Below are positions 13,542 to 18,383 of a DNA stretch of 64,000 nucleotides, in pieces. A model generated the notes under the pieces. It had not been told where the DNA came from. It was given only the letters and a program-made list of their open reading frames with translations, and made no database searches. The translations under genes and the position numbers were made by a program. Positions within the stretch are counted from its first letter, which is position 1; each line of letters begins with the position of its first letter. Source of the stretch: Caulobacter segnis (GTDB lineage: Bacteria > Pseudomonadota > Alphaproteobacteria > Caulobacterales > Caulobacteraceae); assembly GCF_019931575.1 (NCBI RefSeq), contig NZ_CP082923.1:248001-312000 (forward strand). Reading direction: 5' to 3'.

Positions 13542-14498
13542 CTAGAGTGTGCACACTGCGCCAAGGCTTCCATCTGGAAGCTCCTTTGCGAAGCGATACA
13601 TCCCGTTCTCAACGAAAACTTTCATGGCTTCGCCTGGGCCTAGAGTAATGCCTCTCTCTGTTTCCCAGTTGATTTTGCCTCTTGAGAATTTACGGGCGAC
13701 AGCGATCGTCTCGAGAGAGCCTACTAGGCCTTCCCATTTTGTCAGCCTCAAGAATTCGACGTGTTCCAGCTCTAGGTGGCTATCAGCAAGGCGAGGCTTA
13801 ACTGCGACGTTGTCCGCATTGCAGCCCATCGCCATCGTTGGATAGAGCAACCCATAGCCGAACCCACCGTCTAGTTTCATGGTTCGGATAATGGATGCGA
13901 TAAATGATGAGCATTTATGATTTTCATCATTTGAGTCAGCGCCGAACACTTCAGCGAGCATCTGCTCGCCGATGCGATAGGCATTTTCTTGACTCCATGG
14001 TCCTTGGAAGCTGAGGGGAGGGAAGCGCTGCGAGCCATTTCTGGCGAAGATTGATTGATGATGGGCGACTACAATCGCGGTGAGCTTACGTCTAAGCTTC
14101 CAGTGGCCCAAAGCGAACGTTTGTCCCTCTTGGATTCTTATTTCGAAAGGAACAGCCGCCCGAGCCGTAGCTGCATAGAAGATGCTCTCACCTTCTTGAT
14201 TGACGCGTCCCAACTTACAGCGCGAAGGAGGAGGGGCGGATATCTCGCTGATGAGGCTAGGCCTCTGCTCCATTATTCGCCCACGGAAGAAAGTCGCGCC
14301 AGCGTCGAAGCGATATGCGCTCTGCACCAGTCCTTTGGATAGGTCTCGAAAAGCCATTTCCAGACTGTGTTTCTCGCTTTCTGGGTTGCGGCGAAATGCT
14401 TCGAGCGCAGCGCGGAAGCGCTCGGTCATCTCTATCGTCATTCGCTCATAAGGACCGTTGGGATTGAGTTTTGACAGCGACGAAACCTCGGCGTTCAT
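13542..14498 (-). CDS. RES-domain protein in a low-GC segment
   Basis: A 318-residue protein. After a helical N-terminal region of about 80 residues comes a RES-like core: 'FFRGRIM', then 'LGRVNQEGESIFYAATARAAVPFEIR', and near the C-terminus 'GLLYPTMAMGCNADNVAVKP', which matches the family's YPS...G.N..L pattern. Known RES toxins (MbcT, ParT) consume NAD+ or modify a metabolic enzyme. No Xre-type antitoxin gene is adjacent, and the protein is longer than typical toxins, so a solitary RES enzyme is also possible. Composition is unlike the neighbours: bases 13561-13620 are 30 G+C of 60, in a genome near 70 percent, which suggests transfer. ATG 14498 is preferred over an upstream TTG. Confidence 0.7.
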   Translation of the reverse strand: MNAEVSSLSKLNPNGPYERMTIEMTERFRAALEAFRRNPESEKHSLEMAFRDLSKGLVQSAYRFDAGATFFRGRIMEQRPSLISEISAPPPSRCKLGRVNQEGESIFYAATARAAVPFEIRIQEGQTFALGHWKLRRKLTAIVVAHHQSIFARNGSQRFPPLSFQGPWSQENAYRIGEQMLAEVFGADSNDENHKCSSFIASIIRTMKLDGGFGYGLLYPTMAMGCNADNVAVKPRLADSHLELEHVEFLRLTKWEGLVGSLETIAVARKFSRGKINWETERGITLGPGEAMKVFVENGMYRFAKELPDGSLGAVCTL

Positions 14499-14622
14499 GG
14501 TGTTAAGCCTTTGGAGTGTAACTATTTTCTCCAAAGAAGCTGTCGCAAGGACATACCAACTTTAGCACGATTCTAGATCCTCCCCTTCCCCCACCGCCCC
14601 ACATCCGCTACACCCCCGCCCG

Positions 14623-14703
14623 ATGACCCGCGCGCCGCACCATCACGGCCACCACCACCATCCGACCTCGCCTCGCGGGATCGGCCGGGTTCGCTCGCTC
14701 TAA
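14623..14703 (+). CDS. Histidine-rich leader peptide of the hisSZG operon
   Basis: A 26-codon ORF starting 'MTRAP' and containing 'HHHGHHHH' (codons 6-13, seven His of eight), ending in TAA at 14701-14703. It lies 86 bases before hisS. A run of His codons ahead of a his operon followed by alternative hairpins is the hallmark of ribosome-mediated attenuation: scarce charged tRNA-His stalls the ribosome on the His codons and favours the anti-terminator fold. No Shine-Dalgarno sequence is seen upstream of the ATG, so translation may be leaderless. The sequence is direct; the regulatory role is inferred. Confidence 0.8.
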   Translation: MTRAPHHHGHHHHPTSPRGIGRVRSL

Positions 14704-14714
14704 CGCAAGCTCCC

Positions 14715-14761
14715 AGCCAGAGCCCCGCCTAGCGGATGGGGCTTGGCTAAAGCGCCATCCG
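14715..14761 (+). promoter_or_regulatory. Candidate his attenuator, two competing hairpins
   Basis: Hairpin A pairs 14715-14726 with 14738-14748 (11 bp with one bulged G). Hairpin B pairs 14733-14739 with 14755-14761 (7 bp), continued inside by 14741-14744 with 14750-14753. Both need bases 14738-14739 and neighbours, so only one can form. Hairpin B is not followed by a T-tract, so control may act on hisS translation or via Rho. A small 4-bp hairpin (14768-14782) also includes the hisS AAGGA ribosome site. Confidence 0.6.
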
Positions 14762-14789
14762 TCGAAGCCTTGAAGACTAAGGACCGACG

Positions 14790-16277
14790 ATGACTACCCC
14801 CGCAGACGACACCACGCCCCAAGACTTCCGCCCCGAGGCGCGCAGCCCCAGGGGCTTCGCCGACAAGCGCGCCCGCGACCTGCGGGCCGAGCGGGCGATC
14901 CTGGAGGCGGTGTCGGCGGTCTATGAGCGCTACGGCTTCGAGGCGCTGGACACCGGGGCGTTCGAATACGCCGACGCCCTGGGCAAGTTCCTGCCCGACA
15001 GCGACCGGCCCAACGAGGGCGTCTTCGCGCTGCAGGACGACGACGACCAGTGGATGGCGCTGCGCTACGACCTGACCGCGCCGCTGGCGCGGTTCGCGGC
15101 GCAGAACTGGGAGACCCTGCCCAAGCCGTTCCGCCGCTACGCCTTCGGGCCGGTGTGGCGCAACGAGAAGCCGGGGCCGGGGCGCTTCCGCCAGTTCATC
15201 CAGTGCGACGCCGACACGGTCGGCTCGGCCCGTCCGGAGGCCGACGCCGAGATCATCGCCATGGCGGTCGAGGGGCTGGAGGCGGCCGGCCTGCCGCGCG
15301 GCGCGGCGGTGCTGAAGATCAACAATAGGAAGCTGCTGAACGGCCTGCTGACGGCGGCGGGCGCCGACAGCGCCGGCCAGAAGCTGGCCGTGCTGCGCGC
15401 GGTCGACAAGCTGGACCGCCTGGGCGTGGACGGCGTGCGGCTGCTGCTGGGCGAGGGCCGCCTGGACGAGAGCGGCGACTTCACCAAGGGCGCGGGCCTG
15501 AAGGGCAAGGCGATCGACTCGGTGCTGGACTTTGTCCAGGCCGGGGCGGGCGGCCGTTCGGCGACCTTGGACAACATCGCCAAGGTGGTGGCCGGCTCGG
15601 CCGAGGGCGACGAGGGCCTGCTGGAGCTGTCGCGGATCGACGCGGCCCTGACCAGCCTGGGCATCGCCGACGACCAGGCCTTCATCGACCCGTCGATCGT
15701 CCGGGGGCTGGAATACTACACCGGCGCGGTGTTCGAGGCCGAGCTGCTGCTGACGACCACGGACGAGAAGGGGAACAAGGTCTCGTTCGGCTCGATCGGC
15801 GGCGGCGGGCGCTATGACGACCTGGTGGCGCGGTTCACCGGCAATGTCACCCCGGCCACGGGCTTCTCGTTCGGGGTGTCGCGCCTGGCGGCGGCGCTGC
15901 GGGCGGCCGGACGCGAGCCGGGTGGGACGGCGCGCGGGCCGGTGGTGGTGATCACCTTCGACCAGGCGCACATGCCGGAATACTTCTCCGTGGTCGGACA
16001 GCTGCGCGCGGCGGGCATCCCGGCCGAGGTCTATCTGGGGACCTCGGGCATGAAGCCGCAGATGAAATACGCCGACCGCCGGGGCGCGCCGGCCGTGGTC
16101 ATGCTGGGCGGGGACGAGATCGCCGCCGGCACGGTGACGATCAAGGACCTGGACGCCGGCCGCATGGCCGCCGAGGGCTTGGCCGACAACGCCGCCTGGA
16201 AGGCCGAGCGTCCCGGCCAGCAGACCATCCCGCGCGACCAGCTGGTCGCCGCGGTTCGCAAGATCATCGGGGGCTAA
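14790..16277 (+). CDS. hisS: Histidine--tRNA ligase, divergent alphaproteobacterial type
   Basis: A 495-residue class II aminoacyl-tRNA synthetase that charges tRNA-His. Motif 2 reads 'RRYAFGPVWRNEKPGPGRFRQF', the HisA-type motif is 'RGLEYYTGAVFE', and motif 3 lies in 'TGFSFGVSRLAAAL'. A C-terminal anticodon-binding domain follows from about residue 385. Compared with common bacterial HisRS (motif 2 with 'FRHERPQ.GR.RQF'), motif 2 differs in the way described for a clade of alphaproteobacteria, including Caulobacter, whose tRNA-His lacks the extra G-1. It is the first gene of an operon with hisZ (4-base gap) and hisG, behind a His-rich leader. The ATG is preceded by AAGGA. Confidence 0.96.
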   Translation: MTTPADDTTPQDFRPEARSPRGFADKRARDLRAERAILEAVSAVYERYGFEALDTGAFEYADALGKFLPDSDRPNEGVFALQDDDDQWMALRYDLTAPLARFAAQNWETLPKPFRRYAFGPVWRNEKPGPGRFRQFIQCDADTVGSARPEADAEIIAMAVEGLEAAGLPRGAAVLKINNRKLLNGLLTAAGADSAGQKLAVLRAVDKLDRLGVDGVRLLLGEGRLDESGDFTKGAGLKGKAIDSVLDFVQAGAGGRSATLDNIAKVVAGSAEGDEGLLELSRIDAALTSLGIADDQAFIDPSIVRGLEYYTGAVFEAELLLTTTDEKGNKVSFGSIGGGGRYDDLVARFTGNVTPATGFSFGVSRLAAALRAAGREPGGTARGPVVVITFDQAHMPEYFSVVGQLRAAGIPAEVYLGTSGMKPQMKYADRRGAPAVVMLGGDEIAAGTVTIKDLDAGRMAAEGLADNAAWKAERPGQQTIPRDQLVAAVRKIIGG

Positions 16278-16281
16278 TAGG

Positions 16282-17427
16282 GTGAGGCTCGAGCGTTCCA
16301 TTCCGGCGGAGGCGCTCGACGCCATCCGCGCGCCCCTGCTGGCGGCCGGCGCCGTGGCGACCGACGCGCCCGTGCTGCAGCCCCTGGGCCTGCTGCTGGA
16401 CCTGACCGGCGAGGCCATGCGCGCCCGGCTGTTCGTCGTCTCCGGCGACGGCGGCGAGGAGGCGGCCCTGCGCCCCGACTTCACCGTGGCCGTGGCCCGG
16501 CAGCACTTTTCCGCCAGAAGCGAAAATGGGGGCGGCGGGGCGGGCCGCTACCGCTACGAGGGCAAGGCGTTCCGCGTCGCGCCACGTGGCTCGGACCGGG
16601 CCGAGGAGTTCCTGCAGATCGGGATCGAGGCCTTCGAAGCCGGCGACCCCGTGGCCGCCGACGCCGAGATCGCCGCCCTGGCCTGGGCGGCCTCGGCCGC
16701 CGGCGGGCGGGACGACCTCAGCCTGATCCTGGGCGACGTCTCGCTGTTCGCCGCCTTCGTCGACAGCCTGGATCTGGCCGCGCCCCTGGCCGCCCGGCTC
16801 AAGCGCGCCTTCGCCAAGCCGCGCCAGCTGAAGGCCGAGCTGGACGGCGACGTGGAGCAGCCGACCGGCGAGGAGAGCCGCATCGCCTCGCTGCTGGCCG
16901 GCCTGCCGGAGGCCGAGGCCTCGGCGGTGCTGCAGGAGCTGTGGTCCCTGGCCGGCATCGAGCCCGTCGGCGGCCGCCGCCCGGCCGAGATCGCCCACAG
17001 GCTGGTCGAGCGCGCCGAGGCCGCCAAGGCCGGCCGTCTGGACGCCGAGCAGGCCGCCAAGGTCCGCGCCTTCCTGGCCGTCTCGGATCGTCCGGACGCG
17101 GCGCTGGACGCCATCGCGGCCCTGGCGGGTCCGAACGGCGCGGCGCTGAAGGCCGCCGTCGCCGGCTGGCGGTCGCGCCTGTCGGGCCTGGCCGCGCGCG
17201 GGGTTCCGCTGGACCGCGTGACCCTGGCCGCCGCCTTCGGCCGGGCCTTCGGCTATTACGACGGCTATCTGTTCGAGGTCCGCTCTTCCGCCCTGGGCGA
17301 CGAGCGGCCGCTGGCTGCGGGCGGCCGCTATGACGGCCTGCCCGGCAAGCTGGGCGCCGAGACCAACACCGGCGCGGTGGGCTTCATGGTCCGTCCGGCG
17401 CGCGCCTATGCGGGAGGCGGCGAATGA
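16282..17427 (+). CDS. hisZ: ATP phosphoribosyltransferase regulatory subunit
   Basis: A 381-residue HisRS paralogue that lacks tRNA charging and works as the regulatory partner of the short HisG. It has an N-terminal class II-like core: 'LRPDFTVAVARQHFS', 'RYRYEGKAFRVAP', and 'EFLQIGIEAF' in place of the synthetase motif. Near the end is 'AGGRYDGLPGKLGAETNTGAVGFMV'. It starts with GTG at 16282, 4 bases after hisS, and its stop overlaps the hisG ATG. HisZ-HisG forms a hetero-octamer that carries feedback inhibition by histidine. Confidence 0.95.
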   Translation: MRLERSIPAEALDAIRAPLLAAGAVATDAPVLQPLGLLLDLTGEAMRARLFVVSGDGGEEAALRPDFTVAVARQHFSARSENGGGGAGRYRYEGKAFRVAPRGSDRAEEFLQIGIEAFEAGDPVAADAEIAALAWAASAAGGRDDLSLILGDVSLFAAFVDSLDLAAPLAARLKRAFAKPRQLKAELDGDVEQPTGEESRIASLLAGLPEAEASAVLQELWSLAGIEPVGGRRPAEIAHRLVERAEAAKAGRLDAEQAAKVRAFLAVSDRPDAALDAIAALAGPNGAALKAAVAGWRSRLSGLAARGVPLDRVTLAAAFGRAFGYYDGYLFEVRSSALGDERPLAAGGRYDGLPGKLGAETNTGAVGFMVRPARAYAGGGE

Positions 17428-18383
17428 CGGCTGCACCTATGATCTTCGCCATCCCCTCCAAGGGCCGCCTGAAGGACCAAGTCGAGGCCTGGCTGGCCGA
17501 GTGCGGCTTCAAGCTGGAAATGACCGGCGGCGCGCGCGGCTATTCGGCCGAGCTGGCCGGCCTGCCGGGCGTCTCGGTGCGGCTGCTGTCGGCCGGCGAC
17601 ATCGCCGCGGGGCTGGACAGCGGCGACCTGCACCTGGGCGTCACGGGCGAAGACCTGCTGCGCGAGCGCGGCGACGACATGGACAGCCGGGTCATGCTGC
17701 TGCGGGCCCTGGGCTTCGGCCGCGCCGACCTGGTGGTGACCGCGCCCAAGAGCTGGCTGGACGTCGACACCATGGCCGATGTCGACGAGGTTGGGCACGC
17801 GCACCTGGCCCGCACCGGCCGCCGCCTGCGGGTGGCGACCAAGTACGTCACCCAGACCCGGGCCTTCTTCGCCCGCCACGGCGTCGCCGACTACCGCATC
17901 GTCGAGAGCAGCGGCGCGACTGAAGGCGCGCCCGCCGCCGGCGCGGCGGAACTGGTCGTCGACATCACCACCACCGGCGCGACCCTGGCCGCCAACGGCC
18001 TGAAGATCCTGTCGGACGGCGTGATCCTGAAGAGCCAGGCCCAGCTGACCGCCTCGCTGATCGCCAGCTGGACGGCCGAGCAGCTGGACAGCCTGAAGCG
18101 GCTGCTGTCGGTGGTCGAGGCCAAGGGCCGGGCGGGCAAGCTGGCGACCCTGGTCTGGCCGGCCGAGCAGGACGCGGCGGCCCAGGCGGCCGTGGCGGCC
18201 TTCGTCGCCAAGGGCGGCTCGCGCCGGGCCAACGGCGCCCTGCTGGCGACCGGCGACCTGTTCGACGCCGCCGCCGCCCTGGCGGCCGCCGGAGTCGAGC
18301 CGGTGACCGTCTCGCGCCCGGACTACGTGTTCGAGTCGCGGTCGGCGGTGCTGGATCGCTTCACCGAGGTTCTGCGAAAGTAA
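17424..18383 (+). CDS. hisG: ATP phosphoribosyltransferase catalytic subunit
   Basis: The first enzyme of histidine synthesis joins ATP and PRPP. The 319-residue protein begins 'IFAIPSKGRLKDQ' and has 'DLHLGVTGEDLL', 'RLRVATKYV' and the PRPP loop 'VVDITTTGATLAANGLKI'. It belongs to the HisZ-dependent type; the C-terminal part is longer than in minimal short HisG proteins but does not look like the ACT-like regulatory domain of long HisG. ATG overlaps the hisZ stop (ATGA), indicating translational coupling. The rest of the histidine pathway is not in the window. Confidence 0.95.
   Translation: MTAAPMIFAIPSKGRLKDQVEAWLAECGFKLEMTGGARGYSAELAGLPGVSVRLLSAGDIAAGLDSGDLHLGVTGEDLLRERGDDMDSRVMLLRALGFGRADLVVTAPKSWLDVDTMADVDEVGHAHLARTGRRLRVATKYVTQTRAFFARHGVADYRIVESSGATEGAPAAGAAELVVDITTTGATLAANGLKILSDGVILKSQAQLTASLIASWTAEQLDSLKRLLSVVEAKGRAGKLATLVWPAEQDAAAQAAVAAFVAKGGSRRANGALLATGDLFDAAAALAAAGVEPVTVSRPDYVFESRSAVLDRFTEVLRK

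Follow-up and report, generated by a model that had tools for sequence, protein, structure and literature searches.

A probable translational His attenuator ahead of hisS-hisZ-hisG in Caulobacter segnis, with a predicted relay of RNA hairpins

In Caulobacter segnis the operon hisS-hisZ-hisG is preceded by a short His-rich ORF and a series of overlapping hairpins, and from conservation and modelled folds we judge it probable, at roughly 60%, that this element is a ribosome-operated translational His attenuator controlling the operon. The window, i.e. the whole stretch of DNA that was analysed, comprises 64,000 nucleotides (NZ_CP082923.1, positions 248,001 to 312,000), and coordinates here and in Table 1 count from its first letter.

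In the proposed mechanism, six segments numbered 0 to 5 would pair in two alternative registers. With sufficient charged tRNA-His, the ribosome would clear the His run and 0:1, 2:3 (hairpin A) and 4:5 (hairpin C) would pair, so that the hisS start would be hidden in 4:5. With charged tRNA-His scarce, the ribosome would stall near the end of the His run and cover segment 0; segment 1 would then be free to pair with 2, A would be blocked, 3 would pair with 4 (hairpin B), and segment 5 and the hisS AUG would be released. Expression of hisZ-hisG would presumably follow that of hisS. Because stalling would release the hisS AUG, this parity would fit derepression on histidine limitation with no terminator needed. 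Stalling in vivo and a translational output are what we infer.

Table 1. Features of the hisS leader region and operon (window coordinates)
Feature	Position	Strand	Basis
-10-like promoter element GCTACACC	14607..14614	+	16 nt 5′ of leader ATG
His leader ORF, 26 codons, probably leaderless	14623..14703	+	ORF translation, conservation
His run, codons 6-13 = HHHGHHHH	14638..14661	+	leader translation
Segment 0	14662-14671	+	
Segment 1	14675-14689	+	
Segment 2	14708-14728	+	
Segment 3	14733-14748	+	
Segment 4	14755-14764	+	
Segment 5	14779-14792	+	
Hairpin 0:1, CCGA.CUCGC / GCGGG.UCGG, directly 3′ of last His codon	14662..14684	+	folding
Hairpin 1:2, GCGGG/CCCGC + GGC/GCC + GGG/CCC	14675..14728	+	folding, RNAalifold
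Hairpin A = 2:3	14715..14748	+	folding, pair counts
Hairpin B = 3:4	14733..14761	+	folding, RNAalifold
Hairpin C = 4:5, CAUC.GUCG with CGAC.GAUG, includes hisS AUG	14756..14792	+	folding
Match to Rfam RF01528 (Caulobacter sRNA CC3513)	14568..14737	-	124.6 bits, gathering 40
hisS, histidine-tRNA ligase	14790..16277	+	TIGR00442 389.3 bits, cut-off 286.75 (NCBIfam)
hisZ, ATP phosphoribosyltransferase regulatory subunit	16282..17427	+	NF008949 695.3 bits, cut-off 420
hisG, ATP phosphoribosyltransferase	17424..18383	+	TIGR00070 162.4 bits, cut-off 75.75

The His leader, its promoter and its distribution

The leader ORF translates to MTRAPHHHGHHHHPTSPRGIGRVRSL followed by a stop, with 86 bases between that stop and the hisS ATG, and the three genes behind it are tightly packed (spacings of 4 bases from hisS to hisZ and -4 bases from hisZ to hisG). 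A first-pass annotation of this DNA had described a 26-codon ORF with seven His in codons 6-13, 86 bases 5′ of hisS, which proved correct when the sequence was re-read, and had read it as a His leader with an attenuator ahead of hisS-hisZ-hisG, a view now backed by the conserved peptide, the promoter spacing and the hairpins. Consecutive His codons in a leader before a his operon, the mark of the classical his leader, are thus present. Diverging from the leader is a 330-aa ORF on the minus strand (13542-14534) with no Pfam or NCBIfam match.

Among 27 distinct Caulobacter-type ORFs, picked by peptide motif, the His codons swap between CAC and CAT while His is mostly retained; the leader core is HHHGxHHHP, with H, R, C or Q at codon 10. 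Silent sites in codons 13-22 are invariant in these ORFs, one of which carries Thr15 to Asn. The in-frame pattern CAYCAYCAYNNNCAYCAYCAY (HHHxHHH) occurs at two places in the 5.17 Mb genome and at none in a backwards-read control; the second place lies close to the beginning of a 735-aa ORF, which by a sequence motif looks like a P-type ATPase. A four-His-codon pattern in any frame is found at 56 genome places, too many to be telling, and conservation in relatives is a stronger argument against chance than the genome pattern count.

Of 87 leaders, 86 (76 of 77 distinct upstreams) have a GCTA, TCTA, GTTA or GATA element 14-18 nt 5′ of the ATG, compared with 2.7% of shuffles; the sole exception, L146, has ACTATAG. 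We read this GCTA-like element, by assumption, as an alphaproteobacterial -10. None of the 77 distinct upstreams contains AGGA, GGAG or GAGG within 15 nt 5′ of the ATG, and since a -10-like element at this distance is combined with a lack of any SD-like motif, the leader mRNA is probably leaderless and probably translated as such. Transcription would start approximately 7 nt past the -10, at or beside the leader ATG, if the promoter is read correctly. The first-pass annotation had likewise seen no Shine-Dalgarno sequence here and taken this as a hint of leaderless translation, the same conclusion that we draw; its counter-scenario, a transcription start only after 14703, is disfavoured as judged from promoter position alone. 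In C. crescentus, 375 leaderless mRNAs with translation about equal to that of other mRNAs are reported (PMC4117421).

The conservation search used HisS and was blind to the leader. Within the best 80 of at least 567 loci, 48 were tallied by taxon, and the leader was present in 6/6 Caulobacter and 8/8 Phenylobacterium loci, in 7/11 Hyphomonadaceae and 5/9 unplaced MAG loci, and in 0/10 Brevundimonas, 0/3 Asticcacaulis and 0/1 Phycosocius loci. Two of the 32 untallied loci have almost no upstream DNA, and 30 farther relatives within the same best 80 have no leader of this kind (one, L069, has a long frame). Loci chosen by matching the element itself were excluded from the frequency counts; L001, which duplicates the window, was omitted; each set of identical leaders entered once; and L106 and L130, which carry inserts, were dropped before the tail-length counts and later analyses. 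In the wider class, no such leader was seen at 50 of 137 hisS places (20 upstream stretches and 30 loci, both strands), the 137 places representing 136 of 142 genomes and a few His-containing frames not being placed relative to hisS. A covariance model of the sense strand built here was matched in 43 genomes among the 398 from this order, with other elements as its weakest matches. Conservation in relatives, which had been named as the check to make, holds for both the His run and the hairpins, so that the refutation by lack of conservation did not hold.

Several relatives differ in detail. Hyphomonadaceae-type short His leaders, e.g., MNTTLHHHHHHA, have TTGAC upstream, other downstream sequence and a different hairpin set (L043, L044, L046, L050, L054, L056, L058, L061); in L043 a tRNA-like sequence lies between the His leader and hisS. 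In L121 (genome G130), unrelated AT-rich DNA replaces the promoter and the His half, with the GGGATCGGCC-to-hisS stretch intact, a natural loss. In L106 and L130, the loop of hairpin A (between segments 2 and 3) holds a palindromic insert of approximately 80-90 bases, and L106 keeps the hairpin A arms despite it. In L122, L125, L126, L128, L131, L133, L136, L138, and L141, the start codon that follows hairpin C belongs to a separate 19-22-codon ORF, which frequently contains PRLAAR and terminates just short of hisS, while in other Phenylobacterium loci such a start codon extends HisS in frame. By eye, a second promoter-like pair (CTTG... and a GCTARGC-like element) lies right before hisS in the L122-type loci.

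Alternative folds and their predicted response to ribosome position

Two mutually exclusive hairpins (14715-14748 and 14733-14761) had been recognized in the first pass; both are present in our folding and have 14733-14748 in common, and hairpins 0:1 and C are additional to them. Hairpin 1:2 encloses the leader stop codon, and hairpin C an SD-like AAGGA (14779-14783). Folds begun at the leader ATG contain 0:1, 2:3, and 4:5; when the fold is begun at 14600, 2:3 and 4:5 are kept and 0:1 is lost. The mean pairing of 0:1 is 0.51 in the full ribosome-free RNA and 0.79 before the downstream part exists. Of 31 distinct 26-mers, which come from related rows, 30 have a hairpin beginning no more than 2 nt from the last His codon; the same holds for 36% of shuffles and for 41% of sequences recoded synonymously. 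This argument is weakened by the fact that GC-rich 26-mers fold well regardless. This hairpin persists in relatives, including Phenylobacterium, despite differing loop, length and sequence. A pairing of segment 3 with CCATCCG, in the last His-Pro codons, was rejected; it fits Caulobacter, but by eye the relatives whose segment 3 has GGACGG keep CATCCG in the leader, and the pairing therefore does not covary.

In an alignment of 60 of the 77 distinct leaders, from which near-copies had been removed, RNAalifold returned unprompted three pairs of 1:2 and nine pairs of 3:4. Both registers are supported, as a switch needs, with 0:1, 2:3, and 4:5 given by the single-sequence fold and 1:2 and 3:4 by RNAalifold. 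One B pair is U-A in 42/60 and C-G in 15/60 relatives. In a quick tree built from partial HisS, L016 and L020, which have the C-G pair, sit within a U-A clade (97; starred in that tree), apart from the other C-G rows, so this change arose at least twice. Covarying stems had been suggested as a test. B has a recurrent double change; A has double changes in 3 pairs, compared with 0.9 in shuffles, with 94.7% of its cells paired. Pairing in hairpin C amounts to 90.6%, and none of the three pairs counted has a double change. Taken jointly, 1:2, B and C have double changes in 2 pairs, compared with 1.9 in shuffles, yet in 17 cells compared with 5.2, a count that omits one pair of B and one of C.

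The predicted effect of ribosome position was scanned by folding, codon by codon, the RNA 3′ of a ribosome whose edge was set 12 nt from the start of the A-site codon (a figure of approximately 12 nt is also given in PMC4833913). In 40 Caulobacter-type leaders folded with 10 nt of hisS, the mean predicted openness of the hisS AUG was 0.84, 0.89, 0.80, and 0.81 with the A site at -2, -1, 0, and +1 from the last His, 0.62 at -3 and 0.55 at +2, 0.19-0.40 at -8 to -4, and 0.17-0.30 from +3 on; the last His was misplaced for L122, L133, L136, L138, L141, L017, and L019 in this and the tail-length scans. Switching by more than 0.1 was predicted in 38 of 40 Caulobacter-type leaders and in 21 of 37 others, the mean AUG peak of these 37 being lower (0.54 over 0.33-0.36). 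Footprints of 10-15 nt shifted the peak by approximately one codon (14 leaders), and a stall on the first His codons had little predicted effect. With 16 nt of hisS, the Caulobacter-type peak fell to 0.52-0.71. Across 77 leaders, a few of them with the last His misplaced, AUG openness rose or fell by more than 0.1 in 45 and 7, respectively, with 10 nt of hisS, in 25 and 11 with 20 nt, and in 22 and 12 with 35 nt. The predicted switch is dependent on the length of hisS folded, and is weaker with more coding sequence. Openness of the SD stretch (-12 to -7) was nearly constant, so only the AUG is predicted to be freed. Alternative pairings that hide or free the start, the hallmark of a translational attenuator, are thus found in prediction, and more weakly with longer tails.

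Null sequences for the region past the His run were generated for 12 leaders. The AUG was at least as open as in the real leader in 8 of 300 sequences made by dinucleotide shuffling and in 54 of 300 made by synonymous recoding; in 5 of the 12 leaders, 7-9 or 4-5 of 25 synonymous recodings matched the real one. Scored by formation of B, 88 of 300 recodings and 41 of 300 shuffles equaled the real leaders, with L093 scored B 0 from a misread arm.

The opposite strand and rival explanations

The minus strand over the leader matches Rfam RF01528, the family of the sRNA CC3513, which reportedly goes back to Landt 2008. Rfam also has a His leader family, and no match to it was listed in Rfam searches with E up to 1 and up to 5. 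The functional RNA might accordingly be a minus-strand antisense sRNA, CC3513, over the hisS leader, with the plus-strand ORF secondary. Beside the match itself, silent-site conservation would be compatible with a functional RNA on the plus or the minus strand, a C.A mismatch seen by eye in the 1:2 arm of Caulobacter becomes G.U on the minus strand, and the ratios of G.U to C.A do not decide between strands for 1:2 (2:1, 8:6), inner B (8:6) and inner C (33:31). Elsewhere, however, G.U exceeds C.A as read on the plus strand, in A (29:6, with 24 of the 29 G.U cells in one column), B (10:1), P (9:3), C (8:3), and outer C (23:11), and His is retained while codons change. The B loop, where an antisense promoter would be expected, is variable (by eye), the conserved B and C arms lie outside RF01528, and the element is recovered by the sense model, itself derived from related sequences, in G022 and G111, both missed by RF01528. 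A sigma-70 consensus scan, which misses the sense promoter too, found no minus-strand promoter site. We regard a functional antisense RNA as very unlikely, and take RF01528 to be an opposite-strand image of the attenuator, arising via a strand error or as an antisense by-product.

A second rival is a transcriptional attenuator, in which the ribosome on the His run decides the folding and a hairpin acts with Rho or as a T-less terminator. The exclusive A and B and the leader stop inside 1:2 resemble the classical trp/his layout, and in Phenylobacterium a T-tailed hairpin does occur in two leader-like elements, L244 and L245, that stand ahead of a different gene. Hairpin B had been noted in the first pass to have no T-tract, and none follows it here; across 72 leaders the longest T run in the 12 nt past B is 0-3, and an intrinsic terminator was rejected for lack of a T-tract. 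Moreover, B is the predicted fold when the A site lies close to the last His codons, and A when the ribosome has reached the stop. A terminator at B would need the opposite order, as in these predictions stalling would switch it on rather than off. The C arm beside the hisS ATG is also conserved, and we consider a transcriptional output rather unlikely. The earlier guess of a translational or Rho-dependent output is one we share, with a preference for translation. The leader peptide could alternatively be a small functional His-rich (metal-binding) protein whose site before hisS is incidental, as PTSPRGIGRV beyond the His run is conserved in Caulobacter-type leaders. Silent sites are conserved in that part too, though, while in Phenylobacterium the peptide differs and the hairpin persists, and as a leader HHHxHHH is found in this genome before hisS only; we find this explanation hardly credible.

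Known systems, similar layouts and meaning

The enterobacterial his operon leader is a case of ribosome-mediated transcription attenuation. It has in common with the translational His attenuator favored here a leader ORF with a His run and a ribosome whose position picks between overlapping hairpins; here, by contrast, the genes are hisS-hisZ-hisG, no T-tract terminator is present, the ORF is probably leaderless, the hairpins reach the start codon with opposite parity, and no Rfam His leader match was listed. In translational attenuators of the ermC kind, stalling of a ribosome on the leader ORF changes the RNA fold such that the start of the downstream gene becomes accessible. That feature would be shared, but here uncharged tRNA-His, not a drug, would be read, by a codon run, and six segments would be involved.

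Published work includes close parallels. Transcription attenuation by his leaders is described, and variants that hide the RBS are acknowledged (PMC9413887). In bacilli, a different phylum, His leader peptides occur before hisS* (a histidyl-tRNA synthetase paralogue) and hisZ (Naville and Gautheret 2010, PMC2965389); these were detected through premature terminators and are therefore taken as transcriptional, and the same source saw no similarity between Firmicutes and Proteobacteria leaders. In S. meliloti, trpL/rnTrpL is likewise an alphaproteobacterial attenuator with a leaderless leader ORF, for Trp, in which transcription attenuation yields a trans-acting sRNA (PMC10117765). In C. crescentus, of the same genus, a leader CDS precedes another aminoacyl-tRNA synthetase gene, trpS, again for Trp (PMC4117421). 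The wiring proposed in the first pass, one leader before the synthetase together with hisZ and hisG, is supported, but it is not without precedent, given the bacilli hisS*/hisZ leaders and the C. crescentus trpS leader CDS. In the literature searched, the element, its six-segment relay and its identity with RF01528, a family that covers this DNA on its other strand and is presented as an sRNA gene, are undescribed, although Lopatovskaya 2010 (aminoacyl-tRNA operons) may include the element and the leader might figure among the 94 new CDSs of PMC4117421.

Leader-like elements were also seen before other genes. The hisS leader model has weak matches in L247 (752-893) and, on the reversed locus, in L248 (814-954) and L249 (895-1035), all preceding an ORF resembling aspartate-semialdehyde dehydrogenase. 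Their leader ORFs are rich in Thr, Ile and Lys (MLKTQIIITTKTTRLCGTLRVRAI; MLMTKTITSKTTCLGGAVSGVRKV), a GCGGG hairpin follows right after the Thr codons (by eye), and the layout is apparently the same for other amino acids, as far as sequence can suggest. A second model match, in two Phenylobacterium-group genomes (L244, 996-1132, and L245, 1144-1272, on the reversed locus), precedes an ORF resembling a GNAT acetyltransferase, with leaders MTAFATLMHMTCRTAQ... and MRAAIALMHVTCRTAQ... and a hairpin followed by T-rich DNA. In L183, trpS of the C. segnis genome itself is preceded by a short ORF, MAPIGLLAPRWRGSF (1336-1383), with a GGCTAAC element just 5′ of its ATG, perhaps the counterpart of the C. 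crescentus trpS leader.

The most inclusive form of our proposal is more tentative, and we rate it somewhat below an even chance: that a six-segment relay (0:1, 2:3, 4:5 versus 1:2, 3:4) on a leaderless ORF sets hisS translation, and via the operon that of hisZ-hisG, in Caulobacter and Phenylobacterium, that CC3513 is its wrong-strand image, and that the same layout with other codons precedes other genes in the order, such as the asd-like one. If true, a single sensor of charged tRNA-His would set the charging enzyme together with the first step of synthesis, translationally and through a leaderless ORF, in a model genus. It would be a directly testable Caulobacter regulator, and the strand of an Rfam family would be called into question. 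The layout, a codon run with a hairpin directly behind it and a relay to the start codon, would offer a search template for leaders in alphaproteobacteria.
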